38,032 nt of DNA from Minisyncoccota bacterium. Its GTDB lineage: Bacteria; Patescibacteriota; Minisyncoccia; Phycocordibacterales; UBA918. The notes under the pieces are model-generated. The model saw nothing but the letters and a program-made list of their open reading frames with translations, had not been told where the DNA came from and searched no databases. The position numbers and the translations under genes were made by a program. Positions 19,338 to 26,868 of the stretch are shown piece after piece. The stretch covers positions 1 through 38,032 of the forward strand of contig JAGOON010000004.1 of the NCBI GenBank assembly GCA_017992505.1. The letters are read 5' to 3'. Every line of letters begins with the position of its first letter. Within the stretch, counting starts at the first letter, position 1.

Positions 19338-21290
19338 TTACCGAGTAAACAACCTTAGACTTAGGAGAATCACAAGAATCGCAACCCCCGAATCGGCGGC
19401 AATAGCCATCACCAAGTTTGCCTGCCCAGTGATTACCAGGACGAGAAATACCAGTTTGGCAATCAAGGCTAGCGTGACATTAAACCTAATAGTCTGCATG
19501 GTTGCTCTAGCTAAGCGTATTGCTTGTGGAATAGTCGACAGATTGCCAGACAACAGAGCAACGTCAGCCGTTTCAATTGCCACATCAGTACCGCCTGCTC
19601 CAATCGCAATCCCTACATCAGCAGTAGCAAGTGAAGGTGCGTCGTTAATACCATCGCCAACCATAGCTACACTTCGGTACTGCTTTTGCAACATCACGAC
19701 ATTGTTGAGTTTATCTTCAGGAGAAAGGGCGGCTTTTGCTTCTGTAATACCTACTCTATCGGCCACGTATCGTGCGCTGTACTGATTATCACCAGTTAGC
19801 ATGACACTACTCACTCCTAATTTATTTAACTCAGCAATCACCATTTTTGCTTCTGTACGTATCTCATCTGCAATCGCAATCGCTCCGATAAGTTCCTTGT
19901 CAGAAGCAATCAAGACAACTGTTTGACCTTCTTTTTCAAGTCTTTCAATTGTGTCTATAAATCCATCGCTTACCACACCTGAGTCTGCCATTAACTTGTG
20001 GTTGCCGATATAGTGTCTAGCACTACACACCAGACAATGAGCATGCCCACCCTTACCTGCCACGTTTTCAAACGAGTCCATGGTATGCGGTGTGATGTTC
20101 TGAGCTTTTGCGTAGTCTAAGACAGCTTCAGCTAGTGGGTGTGAGGAGAAGAGTTCTATTCCAGCCGCGTCTGCGATCACCTCTTCTTTTGAGTGCGACC
20201 CAAAAGCAAATACTTCAGTCACGCTGTGACGACCATAAGTAAGGGTACGAGTTTTATCAAAAGCAATTGCTCGCACCGATGCTAGCTTCTCTAAATAGGC
20301 ACCGCCTTTAATCAGAATTCCATGCCTAGACGCCCCGCCAATAGCTGAAGCAATTGCCACTGGAGTAGATATCACCAACGCACAAGGGCAAGCAATAACC
20401 AAAAGAGTAATCGCACGATACAGCCAATCTTCAAAAGGAAGTCCTAGTAATAGCGTTGGAACTACTGCAACCAATAGTGAAATCACGACGATAAGTGGCG
20501 TGTAGTACCGAGCAAATTTCTCAATGAATGTATCAGTAACTGCTCGTGAGACCTGAGCCTTCTTTATTAGCGTAATAATGCGAGCAAACATTGAGTCACC
20601 GCTCGTCTTATCAACGGTTACCTCAAGGTACCCTTGAATATTCATTGTTCCCGCAAAAACACTGTTCCCAATGACTTTATCAACAGGAGCTGATTCACCC
20701 GTAATAGCTGACTCATCCACAGTTCCACCACCAACAGTAATAGTTCCATCAAGTGGAATTTGTTCGCCTGGCTTTACAACCACAACTACGCCAATAGCGA
20801 CTTCTTCCACAGGGACCATTTCACCTGACTGTAACCTAGCTACTTTAGGGGCACGTTTAAGCAGTGCCTCTACCGCTCGTCTTGAGCGCTCAATCCCAAA
20901 CGACTCAAAGAATTCCGCTAGTGAAAAGAGAAAGACCACAGCGGCTGCTTCACCGTATTCTCCAATGTAGACTGCGCCGAGAGCAGCAATTACTACGAGA
21001 AAACTAATATTGAGAAATCGTTTCCTGATGAGTCCGTTAAACGCACTACGCACGACAAACACTGAGCCGAAAATAATCGAAAGGATGTAGAAAAAATTAC
21101 CCCAAGCTTCCATATTTTCAGTAAAACTCCATGTAAATCCGATAAACATGAGGAGTCCAGAAAGGGGCGTAAAGAATCGTAACGCCACTTCATTTAAGGT
21201 AATTTGTCGAACATTCTCCTTTGGGCTGACCGTAGGAGCGTGATCATCACTATGGCAATGACCACACGAACTTTTTTGTTCATGTTCCAT
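19338..21290 (-). CDS. P1B-type heavy-metal ATPase, Zn/Cd-like, with a DKTRT phosphorylation motif
   Basis: 650 aa. The N-terminus is a short Cys/His-rich segment (CGHCHSDDH) rather than an HMA domain. Motifs: TGE loop (ITGES), CPC in the transport helix (ACPCALVISTP), the SSHPLAEA His-Pro, MLTGDN, and GDGINDAPSLATADVGIAIG. The final helices contain a Lys in ALIAKLVFLVL and ADSG, features of the Zn/Cd/Pb subgroup (ZntA/CadA). The phosphorylation loop reads D345-K-T-R-T instead of the nearly invariant DKTGT; the Arg codon is CGT, one base from GGT. Either activity is altered or lost, or a sequencing change occurred. It would export Zn(II) or Cd(II). Confidence 0.9.
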   Translation of the reverse strand: MEHEQKSSCGHCHSDDHAPTVSPKENVRQITLNEVALRFFTPLSGLLMFIGFTWSFTENMEAWGNFFYILSIIFGSVFVVRSAFNGLIRKRFLNISFLVVIAALGAVYIGEYGEAAAVVFLFSLAEFFESFGIERSRRAVEALLKRAPKVARLQSGEMVPVEEVAIGVVVVVKPGEQIPLDGTITVGGGTVDESAITGESAPVDKVIGNSVFAGTMNIQGYLEVTVDKTSGDSMFARIITLIKKAQVSRAVTDTFIEKFARYYTPLIVVISLLVAVVPTLLLGLPFEDWLYRAITLLVIACPCALVISTPVAIASAIGGASRHGILIKGGAYLEKLASVRAIAFDKTRTLTYGRHSVTEVFAFGSHSKEEVIADAAGIELFSSHPLAEAVLDYAKAQNITPHTMDSFENVAGKGGHAHCLVCSARHYIGNHKLMADSGVVSDGFIDTIERLEKEGQTVVLIASDKELIGAIAIADEIRTEAKMVIAELNKLGVSSVMLTGDNQYSARYVADRVGITEAKAALSPEDKLNNVVMLQKQYRSVAMVGDGINDAPSLATADVGIAIGAGGTDVAIETADVALLSGNLSTIPQAIRLARATMQTIRFNVTLALIAKLVFLVLVITGQANLVMAIAADSGVAILVILLSLRLFTR

Positions 21291-21382: not shown

Positions 21383-22642
21383 TTAGTAACGTACGTAGTA
21401 TTTTATCTCTGCTTTGTCGGTAACAGCGGTAATCCACGCTTGTGTCTCCATTTGGATTTTTTGTTGCTTAAGTTGCTCAGCTATTTCGGCATTGAGTTGT
21501 TCGGGCGTTTCATCTGGGTGAGCCTCGATACCGTTTTCAGCTAAATACGCGGTGACTTCCGCATCCGTTACTTTAGTTTTATCACCTAAGGCTTTCTCTA
21601 GTTTTAGTTGCGATTCTATCTGAGCTTCAAGCATCTTCATTGTCATACCTTGTTGCGCTAGCGCTTCTTCAAGTGTTCCTCCTTGAGCTGAAACTTGAGT
21701 TTCAATCTCGGCGATTCTTTCAGTCACCGCACCTGCCTCGATGGTGATACCGAGCTTTTCGAACTCTGTATTTAGCACTCGTTCATTTATCATTGCTTCA
21801 AGAGTTTTCTTGCCATCTTGATCCTCAAGTTTTGAGACAACAGCAAGCCAACTAATTGGTTGACCGTTGACCGTAGCAGCTACTATGTATCCTCGCGTAA
21901 AGAGAAAAGCAACAATAACCAGCAAAACAGCAACTGCAACTGCCCCATACAGCTTGTGCGGTGCAGGGCTGTTGGTAGTCACAGGTTCAGGTGAAGCGGT
22001 AACAATAGTCTCACTTTGAGTCGTTATGATTGTTTCTTGTTGGGTTGGAGTAGTGGCAAGAATATTTAGTAGAGATTCGCTTTCTGAGCTTTTCTGTTGT
22101 CTGACCTTGTATGCAAACCAAGTCAGAATAAGAAAACTACCAAACACCATCACTCCCAAAAATGGAATGGTCGAAAAACCAAAGACGAGAATCGGCGACT
22201 TGGTGCAAGCGGGCAGTAACCCTCCATAAGAACAAGGGAGACTCAGAGTTTTACCTAATACATAGCCTTGGAAGTGATAGTAATAATGGTAACAAGCGAT
22301 ATAGAATCCGAAGGCTGATAAGATTCCAGTTGTCACATGTGTTTCTCTGGTGCGGAACCAGAGTGCGACAACTGATATCACTGAAACTGGATAAAGAAAG
22401 ATCCGTTGCCACCAACAGAGTTCGCATACTGGCGTCTCGTACACTAGCTGGTACACCAATGAGAAAACTGTAGCGGTCAACGCAATCGCTCCAATCAGCG
22501 CAATGTATTGTTCATAACGAATTGAGCGCGCAAATTGTTTACCTGATTTTGTTGTACTACTCCAAATGAGTAGTCCTAACAAAACACCAAAAATACCAAT
22601 TGCTCCAATCGTCAAGATAACTGAATAGGTATGGATGTTCAT
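21383..22642 (-). CDS. DsbB-like oxidoreductase fused to a SurA-N-like chaperone domain
   Basis: 419 aa. Residues 1-180 form a DsbB/BdbC-type membrane domain with redox pairs C73-E-L-C76 (in CELCWWQR) and C137...C146. A polar linker (181-230), rich in Thr/Ser/Gln, follows. A further membrane helix lies at about 231-249. The extracytoplasmic domain (about 255-419), with NGQPISWLAVVSKLED and KTLEAMINERVLNTEFEK, resembles the SurA/PrsA N-terminal chaperone domain and has no parvulin domain. DsbB reoxidises DsbA by passing electrons to quinone. The start overlaps the preceding dsbA gene by four bases. Joining reoxidation and chaperone modules is unusual. Confidence 0.83.
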   Translation of the reverse strand: MNIHTYSVILTIGAIGIFGVLLGLLIWSSTTKSGKQFARSIRYEQYIALIGAIALTATVFSLVYQLVYETPVCELCWWQRIFLYPVSVISVVALWFRTRETHVTTGILSAFGFYIACYHYYYHFQGYVLGKTLSLPCSYGGLLPACTKSPILVFGFSTIPFLGVMVFGSFLILTWFAYKVRQQKSSESESLLNILATTPTQQETIITTQSETIVTASPEPVTTNSPAPHKLYGAVAVAVLLVIVAFLFTRGYIVAATVNGQPISWLAVVSKLEDQDGKKTLEAMINERVLNTEFEKLGITIEAGAVTERIAEIETQVSAQGGTLEEALAQQGMTMKMLEAQIESQLKLEKALGDKTKVTDAEVTAYLAENGIEAHPDETPEQLNAEIAEQLKQQKIQMETQAWITAVTDKAEIKYYVRY

Positions 22643-23322
22643 ACGCCAAACTCTACTTTAGTTGATTCAATTTCAGCCTGAATTGCCTGTTTGAACTCCT
22701 CGTAACTGTTAGGCTGAAGTTTCTTTCCGTTGAGATAGAAGGATGGTGTGCCGGTATTACCTAGAGCGTCTCCAGATTCCATGTCACGTTCAACTCGAGA
22801 CTTGGTTTCAGGCGAATTAACCGCTGCTTTATATTTTTCCATATCAAGCCCTAACTGCTGCGCGTAAGCTTCAAAGACTTCTGGTGTAGGTTTTTGTTTC
22901 TCTCCCCACTTTTTCTGTTCGGTGTAGAGTAGATCGTGCATCTCGAAAAACTTTCCTTGTTGTCCAGCGGCTTCTACCGCCAAGGCGGCAGTCATACCAT
23001 TGCGGTGTCCCGGGAGCGGAAAGTATCGAATCACAATTTGTAAGTCGTTACTGAAGTCTGTTTCGAGTTGCTTAACGAGTGGGAAAAATGCCGCACACGC
23101 TTCACACTCAAAGTCGACGTACTCAACCAGCGTCACTGGTCCACCTACTTTTCCTTTGATGTAATCATCAGGAGCAACAGTCAGTAATGTTCCTGCATCT
23201 TCACTTACAGCTGCTTTCTTTTCAGTGGGAGTACTTCCCGAACTCAACATCCAGATAAGACTTCCAACGATAGCGGTAATTACAATGGTCCACTGCAATG
23301 TTTTAATTTTTCTTGATTTCAT
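22639..23322 (-). CDS. DsbA-family thiol oxidoreductase (CEAC active site)
   Basis: 227 aa. An N-terminal anchor (about 10-27) is followed by a thioredoxin fold with active site C73-E-A-C76 in VDFECEACAAFF, a helical insert, and cis-Pro in NTGTPSFYLNG. It belongs to the Thioredoxin_4/BdbD-like group. It oxidises or isomerises cysteines in exported proteins and is the likely partner of the downstream DsbB-SurA fusion, whose ATG overlaps its stop (ATGA). It differs from the other DsbA in this operon at the CxxC dipeptide (EA versus PF), suggesting different redox potentials. Confidence 0.88.
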   Translation of the reverse strand: MKSRKIKTLQWTIVITAIVGSLIWMLSSGSTPTEKKAAVSEDAGTLLTVAPDDYIKGKVGGPVTLVEYVDFECEACAAFFPLVKQLETDFSNDLQIVIRYFPLPGHRNGMTAALAVEAAGQQGKFFEMHDLLYTEQKKWGEKQKPTPEVFEAYAQQLGLDMEKYKAAVNSPETKSRVERDMESGDALGNTGTPSFYLNGKKLQPNSYEEFKQAIQAEIESTKVEFGV

Positions 23323-23328
23323 ATGGAT

Positions 23329-23868
23329 TTAACTACAAATTAATGGTTCTTTAATTTTCTTACTAAGTGAATAAATGGCATAACACAATATTCCGACTCC
23401 TAGATAACCGAACTCTTTACCGCCAAAGGGTAGAAAGAGTAAGATTCCTGCTCCGCTCACAGTTAACACTGAGCTAATGATGAGGCTCCCACAAGCGGCA
23501 CACCCAACGCCAAGAAAACCGCTTATCACTCCACTCATACCCAACCAGCCAACTGACTGCACACCAGCCTCTTTTGCTCTTCTTGTACGAATATAATAAG
23601 CGAGTAGTGCTACATGTACTCCAAACAAAATGGCGATGAGTATCGTGTACGAAGCGGAGGCAATCGTAAAGTTAGTAATAATTGAGCCGTATAGACTCAA
23701 CACAAAACTGACTTTCTCCAGCACACCTGCGGTATCAGATAGCAGCACTTCTGCAATCAAGGCGAAGTTAGGCATCCACACAGCAATCGAGAATACAGTC
23801 AGTGTAACGAAGCCTGCCAAAAGTAGGTAGAGTGGTTGTTTAAAGATTGTGCTAAAAGTCTCTCTCAT
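23329..23868 (-). CDS. Multi-pass membrane protein with a GCAACG motif
   Basis: 179 aa with four to five hydrophobic helices. The sequence GFLGVGCAACGSLIISSVLT (Cys123, Cys126) places a CxxC pair within or at the edge of a membrane helix. It lies between two dsbA-like genes, with gaps of six and two bases, so it is in the same transcript. The intramembrane CxxC suggests it moves reducing equivalents, by analogy with CcdA/DsbD or VKOR, or binds a metal ion. Family not recognised. Confidence 0.7.
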   Translation of the reverse strand: MRETFSTIFKQPLYLLLAGFVTLTVFSIAVWMPNFALIAEVLLSDTAGVLEKVSFVLSLYGSIITNFTIASASYTILIAILFGVHVALLAYYIRTRRAKEAGVQSVGWLGMSGVISGFLGVGCAACGSLIISSVLTVSGAGILLFLPFGGKEFGYLGVGILCYAIYSLSKKIKEPLICS

Positions 23869-23870
23869 GA

Positions 23871-24611
23871 CTACTTTACCGTCTCCTTTTTAGCTAGGTT
23901 AATAAGTTGTTCAATTGACGCTAACGGTTGTGCACCGTTGATTGGGAACGTCTTGCCGTTTGGAGCAATCAGGATACTCCATGGTGTCCCACGTCCTCCT
24001 GTTTCGGTTGCATTGGCAATGTCCGCTTGGATATGTTCGTTATATTTTCCGCTTTTAGTACAGGCGAAAAATTCAGTTGTGTTAAGTCCCATTTCCTTAG
24101 CAATCTGAGGAATAACTACATCAGTATCAGTCCGATTGTTTGTGAGTGTAAGCTCGAAGTATCTATCGGTGAATTTCCAAAATCCATCATTACCAGCGAG
24201 TTCACTTGCACATTCCGATGCTACCGCTACAGCCTGAGCTTTCACTGGGTGAAGTTGTTCAAGTGGGAACTGTCTAAATACCCACGCCACTTCACCGCTG
24301 TCCACGTATTTCTTCATCAACTCATTCATAGTGTTATGAAATCGCTGGCAAAATGGGCATTCAAAGTCTGAATACGCCACGATTTTAATTGGAGCATCAG
24401 GATTACCTTTAATATGATCTGTTGCAGCGACTGGTCTGACTTTGCTGGTCGTATCACTTACTTGTTCTTGTGTTGGTGCAGGAGCTACCTTTTCCGCAGT
24501 TTTTACGTTATTCCCACCGAAGTAAAGGGCAGCTCCGATAATTCCCCCTGCCACTACTATCGCTAGCGGGGTGAGATATTGAGTTAATTTATTTTTTGTT
24601 GTATTTTCCAT
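23871..24611 (-). CDS. DsbA-family thiol oxidoreductase (CPFC active site)
   Basis: 246 aa from ATG 24611; a start at 24647 is in frame but overlaps the DUF305 stop by 31 bases, while 24611 leaves a four-base gap. Membrane anchor at about 12-31, then a thioredoxin fold with C85-P-F-C88 in SDFECPFCQRFH, a helical insert, and cis-Pro in GGRGTPWSI. Thioredoxin_4-type DsbA. Cys-Pro-Phe-Cys is a common strongly oxidising variant. Together with the CEAC protein and the DsbB fusion it makes a complete oxidative folding set in the envelope. Confidence 0.88.
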   Translation of the reverse strand: MENTTKNKLTQYLTPLAIVVAGGIIGAALYFGGNNVKTAEKVAPAPTQEQVSDTTSKVRPVAATDHIKGNPDAPIKIVAYSDFECPFCQRFHNTMNELMKKYVDSGEVAWVFRQFPLEQLHPVKAQAVAVASECASELAGNDGFWKFTDRYFELTLTNNRTDTDVVIPQIAKEMGLNTTEFFACTKSGKYNEHIQADIANATETGGRGTPWSILIAPNGKTFPINGAQPLASIEQLINLAKKETVK

Positions 24612-24615
24612 AAGT

Positions 24616-24993
24616 TTATAATCCGTACCACTTTTTAAGCCAACCATTCATAGTTTCAACTTCAGCACCTTGCGTGGCGATAATTTCTTCTGCCAATGCT
24701 TTCACTTCAGGACGTTTAGTTTGGTCGACTACCTTCTTCGCCATTTCAATTGCTCCTTCATGATGGACTATCATGTTCTCCACAAAGGCTCGGTCAAGTG
24801 CATTTCTTGTTTTATCGTCTAGCTCGCCGCTTAACTCCTTTACCTGTTCCTCCATCGACACTTCCTGGTTCATGGTAGTAGTCTCATGAGAGATTGAATC
24901 TGACTTTGGCTCTGACGATGCACTTATAGCGGTGCAGAGACCAAATCCGAGCGCTCCTGAAACCACCACTGCTCCAATTATTTTAATGTTCAT
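24616..24993 (-). CDS. DUF305 secreted or anchored protein
   Basis: 125 aa from ATG 24993 (an in-frame ATG at 25008 adds five residues). A hydrophobic N-terminus (IKIIGAVVVSGALGFGLCTA) serves as signal or anchor. The DUF305 signature is clear: FVENMIVHHEGAIEMAKKVV, a ferritin-like/four-helix arrangement with His-His-Glu. Such proteins are extracytoplasmic and frequently sit beside copper or other metal genes. First or second gene of the disulfide operon. Confidence 0.83.
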   Translation of the reverse strand: MNIKIIGAVVVSGALGFGLCTAISASSEPKSDSISHETTTMNQEVSMEEQVKELSGELDDKTRNALDRAFVENMIVHHEGAIEMAKKVVDQTKRPEVKALAEEIIATQGAEVETMNGWLKKWYGL

Positions 24994-25548: not shown

Positions 25549-26868
25549 TCATCCAAGCCAAACCTCTTTATTTGCCAACTTAATTTTGCTCCTTATACAT
25601 AAAAGTAGCTCTCTCTTTTCATAAATCTGTCCGTCACGAAGTATGTACTTCGCATAATTCCTAATATCTACATCAGACACTTTTACATTTGACTCTTTCT
25701 GTCCCAGCAGCCCAGACTGGAACTTCTTCAATCTCTCAATCTCGGCTTTGATTCGTTCCTTCATTCCAATACTGTCTAAGTCAATCTGATCCATGAGTCC
25801 CGCCAGTTGTTCAATAAGGTCGTCTTCGTTTATGTACCCACACTTACATTGCTTGTCGTTATGTTTGGTACACCCGTAGTAGACGTAGCGATGTACATTT
25901 CCGTTTTGCTGTACCTTGAACTTTTCATCAGCGGTGATGCTCGAACCACATAGCCCGCAAGACATCAGCTTTGTGAAGGCAAACTCCTTGCTGTCACCTT
26001 TCGTTATTTGCACCGCTATCTTTTCCTGTACTTGGTCAAAAAGGGCTTTGCTAATCAGTGGCGTATGTTTCCCTTGATACCACTGACCACCTCCTTGCGG
26101 ATATTCAAACGAACCGTAGTAGAAGTGATTGCGGAGAATGATGTATAGGTTGCCAAGATGTAGGTGTTTACCTGTCTTCGTCTTGAATTTTATTTCGTCT
26201 TTGAGCCAGAAGTATAATTTGCGACCGCTGTAGTTTTCATACGCTATCTTCTCGAACATTTTCTTTATGACATGTCCTCGGATGGGGTCGACTTCCACCT
26301 CGCATCGCTTGTCTCTGTTCTTGTTGCTCAGATATCCAGTTGGTGGACTACACGGCCAGAGTCCCATCTCGCACCTAGCTCGTAGTCCTCGTTTGATATT
26401 CACCATCTTGTTATCGTTCTCAAGCTTAGCCTGTGAGCCGAGAATCATAAGGAGGAACTTTTCGTTTGGATTGTTACTGAATCGTTGTCCGTAGGTGCGA
26501 ATGTCTTGCAGTACTCCTAAGTCCATGAGGTCCACTATTCTTCCCAAATCCCCAGCGTTTCTTGAAATACGGTCAGCTGCCCATGTAAGGATACCGTTGT
26601 ATTTTCCTTCCTTAATACCTTCCACCAACTCGTTGAATACTGGTCTTGCTCCTGCCTCTTTTGCAGAGTGAGATTCCTTCTTTATTTCTACAATCTCTAG
26701 ATTGTCCCGTTCTGCCATTGCCAGCATTTCCTTGATTTGTGAGTCGATGGATAGGATTTGCGCCTCTTCACTCTCCGTACTCTTTCTGGCGTATAGGCAA
26801 TATCGTACTGAGACCGCTACTGGCTCGATTCGCACTTTTGCTCCTATTGGTGCTTCTATTCTGCTCAT
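25549..26868 (-). CDS. Large-type serine recombinase/resolvase
   Basis: 439 aa. Resolvase catalytic domain (about 20-165) with nucleophile Ser30 in YCLYARKSTESEE and Arg residues in WAADRISRN. A Recombinase domain (about 185-285, with GYLSNKNRDKRCEVEVDP) is followed by a zinc-ribbon (CGLCGSS, then C-TKHNDKQCKC, about 308-347) and a C-terminal coiled coil. It catalyses site-specific recombination through a 5'-phosphoserine intermediate. Divergent from the AAA-ATPase gene. It is the only recombinase recognised in the island, but it sits about 8-10 kb from either att repeat. Confidence 0.93.
   Translation of the reverse strand: MSRIEAPIGAKVRIEPVAVSVRYCLYARKSTESEEAQILSIDSQIKEMLAMAERDNLEIVEIKKESHSAKEAGARPVFNELVEGIKEGKYNGILTWAADRISRNAGDLGRIVDLMDLGVLQDIRTYGQRFSNNPNEKFLLMILGSQAKLENDNKMVNIKRGLRARCEMGLWPCSPPTGYLSNKNRDKRCEVEVDPIRGHVIKKMFEKIAYENYSGRKLYFWLKDEIKFKTKTGKHLHLGNLYIILRNHFYYGSFEYPQGGGQWYQGKHTPLISKALFDQVQEKIAVQITKGDSKEFAFTKLMSCGLCGSSITADEKFKVQQNGNVHRYVYYGCTKHNDKQCKCGYINEDDLIEQLAGLMDQIDLDSIGMKERIKAEIERLKKFQSGLLGQKESNVKVSDVDIRNYAKYILRDGQIYEKRELLLCIRSKIKLANKEVWLG

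Follow-up and report, generated by a model that had tools for sequence, protein, structure and literature searches.

Does this locus encode a single protein in which DsbB is joined to a SurA-like chaperone, and would such a protein tie disulfide reoxidation to client capture, as an earlier note on this DNA had proposed? In the window, by which we mean the whole analyzed stretch of 38,032 nt, positions 21383-22642 of the (-) strand form an uninterrupted open reading frame of 419 codons encoding DsbB, a linker, a membrane helix and a PPIase-less SurA/PrsA-type chaperone core. All window coordinates given below refer to the (-) strand. Two Pfam families exceeded their curated cut-offs on the deduced protein, DsbB (PF02600) at residues 46-125 (E 4.1e-8, 34.2 bits versus 22.1) and SurA_N_3 (PF13624) at residues 278-350 (E 1.2e-7, 32.1 bits versus 27.2). 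The analysis confirmed that the single-frame fusion is real and intact; it is singular so far, and both parent families were already known. No prior description of a DsbB-chaperone fusion was found in the open-licence literature of PMC, a scope that gives this result little weight. The gene looks like a lineage-specific merger of two operon neighbours from a recurring patescibacterial cassette.

The two halves of the protein

The DsbB domain covers residues 1-182 (22097..22642). Its best NCBIfam model was the disulfide oxidoreductase PRK03113 (residues 42-176, E 7.3e-16, below the cut-off of this model), and its closest relative was a stand-alone DsbB of 187 aa from genome G224 (55% identity). 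Both proteins possess an extra N-terminal helix, which in the fusion lies at about residues 8-26 ahead of the four DsbB helices. The earlier note had correctly recognized the DsbB domain but had missed this additional helix. The hydropathy threshold was passed only by the extra helix and two of the DsbB helices; helices 2 and 3 were assigned by homology, not by simple hydropathy.

Cysteines occur only at positions 73, 76, 117, 137 and 146, none of them in the chaperone half. The two redox pairs named before, C73-x-x-C76 (22415..22426) and C137 to C146 (22205..22234), withstood comparison with other sequences: in an alignment of nine DsbB proteins all four residues were invariant (9/9). The same was true of R80 (22403..22405), which is part of a CxxCxxxR motif and which we take to occupy the position of the quinone-contact arginine of DsbB (R48 in E. 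coli). Judged by the profile, the two cysteine pairs and the CxxCxxxR motif, this half belongs to the DsbB family, and oxidation of DsbA and reduction of quinone by the fusion are predicted from its sequence. Positive charges in the loops 27-45 and 178-185 suggest that both loops are cytoplasmic, which would place both cysteine pairs outside and the DsbB C-terminus inside. The chaperone would then need a membrane helix of its own, and the merger would leave both topologies intact. A hydrophobic helix, corresponding to the second membrane part that had been postulated after DsbB, was detected by hydropathy at residues 231-249 (21896..21952); the same helix is present in stand-alone homologues of the chaperone.

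In the source genome (94.4% complete) the fusion was the sole match to PF02600 at E values up to 1, VKOR gave no match, and five proteins contained Thioredoxin_4. If these five carriers are recharged by DsbB or VKOR, the fusion would be the only candidate found for this task.

The chaperone core comprises residues 253-419 (21386..21886) and was recognized by profiles, by a model and by structure matches. An AlphaFold2 model of the C-terminal half, built with 47 homologous sequences, reached a pLDDT of 92.0; a model of the full-length fusion from the single sequence was poor (pLDDT 55.7) and gives no relative placement of the halves. In a Foldseek search against the PDB, rows 1-5 were SurA-like chaperones (E 1.4e-4 to 4.6e-4), and the best 28 rows were SurA-, PrsA- or parvulin-type folding proteins with the exception of row 6, an integrative YRVJ-YACD model. 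VIA-align returned the same kind of proteins in rows 1-26 with Z scores from 12.5 down to 6.7 (LIC12922 12.5, Cj1289 and PrsA 10.4, SurA about 10, PpiD 8.3), it being understood that helical folds with Z under about 13, as here, can share only their arrangement. Model residues 28-194 paired with SurA 27-427, the isomerase domains of which were bridged, and with PrsA chains. A profile built from 12 homologous sequences matched PrsA 6vj4 (E 5.7e-8) and SurA 2pv3 (E 1.3e-5) in the PDB, and SurA_N_3 was matched by 12 of 12 homologues scanned (E up to 0.1).

No rotamase family was matched by the fusion in Pfam at E values up to 10, and none was among the 25 families shown for the 12 scanned homologues. 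The closest NCBIfam models were peptidylprolyl isomerases of the PrsA kind, below cut-off; the domain of 167 residues has no room for a rotamase domain and is not a member of the parvulin-type PPIases. Structure prediction and profile search of the C-terminal part upheld the suggested SurA relationship as regards the family but not its extent: instead of a SurA-N-like domain, the protein contains the whole PPIase-less core of N-domain and C-terminal helix. The core matches lacking an isomerase domain, together with the anchor, argue for a core-only, membrane-anchored SurA/PrsA-type chaperone, the predicted topology and layout of which are PpiD-like. Its chaperone activity is predicted by analogy. 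Stand-alone homologues of 202-269 aa occur across the phylum; common to them are a tail that is short and polar, a single membrane helix, the segment AATVNGxPIS and, at the C-terminus, a helix plus strand. The source genome contains a second SurA_N_3 protein of 335 aa (G000:C41, L001:1285-2292, (-) strand), which did not match a rotamase family either and has a long acidic tail ahead of its membrane helix.

Gene cassette and distribution of the fusion

The start of the fusion gene overlaps by ATGA with the gene of a DsbA-like thioredoxin, DsbA2 (22639..23322, Thioredoxin_4 E 8.9e-27). It is accompanied by the membrane protein MP179 (23329..23868), by a further DsbA-like thioredoxin, DsbA1 (23871..24647, Thioredoxin_4 E 9.7e-24), and by a P-type ATPase with a His-rich N-terminus (19338..21290, E1-E2_ATPase E 1.6e-48), which recurs beside the cassette. 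An NRAMP-type transporter, a DtxR-type regulator and a DUF305/CopM-like protein are also located nearby. The cassette, consisting of DsbA, CxxC membrane protein, DsbA, DsbB, chaperone and heavy-metal-type ATPase, recurs in Patescibacteria. Of 22 loci in a first set, 20 carry the chaperone, seven of these with DsbA and/or the P-type ATPase beside it; in a second set this applied to six of the best 80 loci, one contig (L154 = L094) being common to both sets. DsbB is placed before DsbA2 in the cassettes L034, L153 and L156 and is missing in L036, L037 and L169.

Several other features of these cassettes were recorded. MP179, which matched no Pfam or NCBIfam family, has a GCAACG-type CxxC within a hydrophobic segment and a further Cys at the C-terminus, and all three cysteines are invariant in 9/9 cassette homologues; it is possibly a member of an unnamed thiol-redox membrane family. 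In L152 (4768-5949) and L154 (1-807, cut by the contig end) DsbA2 is extended at the C-terminus by a stretch containing several Cys and His residues. A DsbB-DsbA fusion, suspected from the 393-aa DsbA2-like ORF in L152, was discarded, as only thioredoxin families were matched. The same-genus cassettes L036, L037, L038 and L039 contain a DUF3105-like protein in place of DsbB/DsbA2 and an additional M23-type peptidase, and three of the four a longer DUF305 protein; the M23 peptidase is also present in L091, L094 and L169. A serine-recombinase-like gene (about 60% identical) adjoins the cassette in the window (25549-26868), in L037 (1-729) and in L156 (1212-2564), so the cassette may be mobile.

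The notion that the fusion recurs in other CPR genomes was not borne out, since the two parts were separate genes in every relative examined. Among the matches listed for the family, order, class and phylum samples, only the source genome gave a match spanning residues 1-419 in one frame. No fusion was found in 146 relatives, in 49 genomes of the family, among the matches listed for 397 genomes of the order, in 383 genomes of the class and 379 of the phylum (both at E 1e-20) or in 52 genomes of the genus of G224 (E 1e-10); the samples overlap, and these numbers do not sum to distinct genomes. Nearly all other matches in the samples covered either the chaperone or the DsbB half. Long-ORF DsbB matches read singly (G140, G044, G053, G136, G037, G079 and G098) did not carry a chaperone, nor did ten further DsbB loci inspected in the same way. 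A match to residues 1-254 in G398 was rejected because it passes the DsbB end via six stop codons into unrelated sequence. Of the 80 loci listed, beyond which more relatives exist, 73 had the chaperone ORF and seven did not (blastp limit 1e-4), and in none of these loci did it include DsbB. Viral contigs yielded no match to the fusion, and the ten plasmid records that matched did so with the DsbB part only.

In G224 both halves were matched, as two places. The gene order there is MP179, DsbA2, DsbB (55%), a gap of 34 nt, chaperone (38%), M23 peptidase and P-type ATPase, an unfused, ancestor-like version of the order in the source genome. We therefore read the fusion as a merger of adjacent cassette genes that is so far confined to a single genome, and not as a recurring enzyme design. 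In the same-genus genomes G002, G010, G013 and G020 the chaperone showed 40-43% identity and DsbB was not beside it. Neither function requires the fusion, since many complete relatives either lack DsbB or encode the two parts separately, and with no second genome containing it, selection for keeping the genes fused cannot be demonstrated.

Proposed mechanism and the clients of the cassette

We consider it probable that the fusion is a bifunctional inner-membrane protein derived from two merged genes of an oxidative-folding cassette. In DsbB, electrons generally pass from DsbA to the second cysteine pair, then to the first pair and finally to quinone. The DsbB half would accept electrons from the neighbouring DsbA2/DsbA1 via C137/C146 and pass them through C73/C76 to quinone, which is named as final acceptor in PMC4555120. 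Behind DsbB the chain would return to the cytoplasm, run through the linker of 48 residues and cross the membrane a second time. Its extracytoplasmic end, the PPIase-less SurA/PrsA-type domain, would hold exported chains that are unfolded, a role like that of membrane-anchored PpiD. According to PMC2956729, PpiD is still active as a chaperone when the PPIase domain is missing, and its effects in surA skp cells require membrane anchoring; for SurA, chaperone activity has been assigned mainly to the core of N- plus C-terminal parts (PMC2556385). With both halves on one chain, recharged DsbA and freshly exported clients that bear cysteines would be kept at one spot, and it is by such tethering that disulfide reoxidation may be tied to client capture. 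Expression as one chain, the topology, the use of quinone and a benefit of tethering are thus proposed features of the fusion.

Known systems resemble the protein in parts. Like E. coli PpiD, it has a SurA-type chaperone core behind one membrane helix, and PpiD of the PpiD-YfgM structure aligned at Z 8.3 over 123 residues (VIA-align); unlike PpiD, it lacks a parvulin domain and carries a complete DsbB ahead of the anchor on the same chain. The core fold of N-domain and C-terminal helix is shared with the foldases SurA, which is soluble, and PrsA, a lipoprotein, but both of these contain the parvulin domains missing here. With the quinone-linked thiol oxidases DsbB/BdbC it has in common two cysteine pairs, CxxCxxxR, the helices and adjacent DsbA-like genes, whereas the extra N-terminal helix and the C-terminal chaperone set it apart. 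VKOR-thioredoxin fusions join a quinone-linked oxidase to a functional partner as well; their partner is the thiol carrier, unlike the putative client-holding chaperone of the DsbB fusion. A DsbB-type enzyme with a large extracytoplasmic domain is also represented by DsbI of Helicobacter/Campylobacter; the added domain of DsbI is a propeller, however, HpDsbI being described in PMC4597128 as a membrane protein with beta-propeller structure, and the NCBIfam DsbI model gave only E 0.37 on the fusion.

Gene fusions report functional partnership. In this case the partner of DsbB is a chaperone, and stand-alone homologues of it are repeatedly located next to Dsb genes in other Patescibacteria, which points to a coupling of thiol oxidation and client holding in cells with very small genomes. 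The weight of the fusion is limited by its occurrence in one assembly, and the recurring cassette as a whole has the broader reach. The fusion nevertheless offers a compact construct for asking whether a tethered DsbB and PpiD-like holder work better. Taken together with the cassette, it might tentatively be pictured as a membrane-tethered oxidative-folding workstation of Patescibacteria with two DsbA-like carriers, a DsbB recharging them, MP179 acting as another thiol channel or as a gate for electrons, and a holder of the PPIase-less, PpiD-like kind; in the source organism DsbB and holder would be hard-wired as one enzyme so that held clients are oxidized. We regard this picture as speculative.

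The neighbouring genes also allow an unlikely reading, in which the cassette is primarily a metal or thiol stress module whose DsbB and chaperone serve to fold the metal-binding proteins (DUF305/CopM type) that the cassette itself encodes for export, and not general oxidative folding. It is favoured by the P-type ATPase with its His-rich N-terminus, the NRAMP-type transporter, the DtxR-type regulator and the DUF305/CopM-like protein near the fusion, and by the DsbA and/or P-type ATPase genes beside the chaperone in the 7/20 and 6/80 loci, sets with one contig in common. Most homologues of the chaperone half, however, lie outside any such cassette in the best 80 loci. As this reading concerns the clients, it is compatible with a bifunctional protein as our main explanation.

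Linker and junction

The polar linker (residues 183-230, 21953..22096), predicted to be cytoplasmic, connects the C-terminus of DsbB with the N-terminal tail that the once separate chaperone gene contributed. Being long, polar and low in structure, it might be cleaved, or the merger might be neutral without any coupling, so that the translated fusion works as two proteins. The membrane anchor shared by stand-alone homologues, with which each half could work alone, and a merger so recent that the sample contains no second one fit this improbable case, but the linker sequence points to no particular protease site and keeps an open, coding-like frame. Improbable as well is an error of the single metagenomic assembly, in which one frame was opened by a wrong base or an indel although the cell has two genes, like those of G224: the fusion was seen in one genome only, with separate genes in all relatives examined, but one error would not delete a stop plus a start, and both the missing start and the coding score of the linker speak against it.

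These features of the junction favour the fusion as one intact frame, as had been claimed from the outset, and make a frame artefact unlikely. The other two frames of the same strand contain stops across the DsbB/chaperone junction, and no in-frame ATG exists between codons 165 and 284, so the second gene lacks its own ATG. Other common start codons are limited, from codon 186 to codon 284, to GTG 221 and TTG 240, for which no obvious ribosome site was seen. Linker codons 186-230 scored 8.9 as coding in the fused frame versus -30.1 and -28.0 in the off frames (references: median 11.9 for 161 real gene segments, 95th percentile 3.7 for 84 intergenic segments). There is some circularity in this score, as the part inherited from the chaperone gene's tail (about residues 200-230) would be coding with or without a fusion; the absent start codon is the stronger argument for the fusion.
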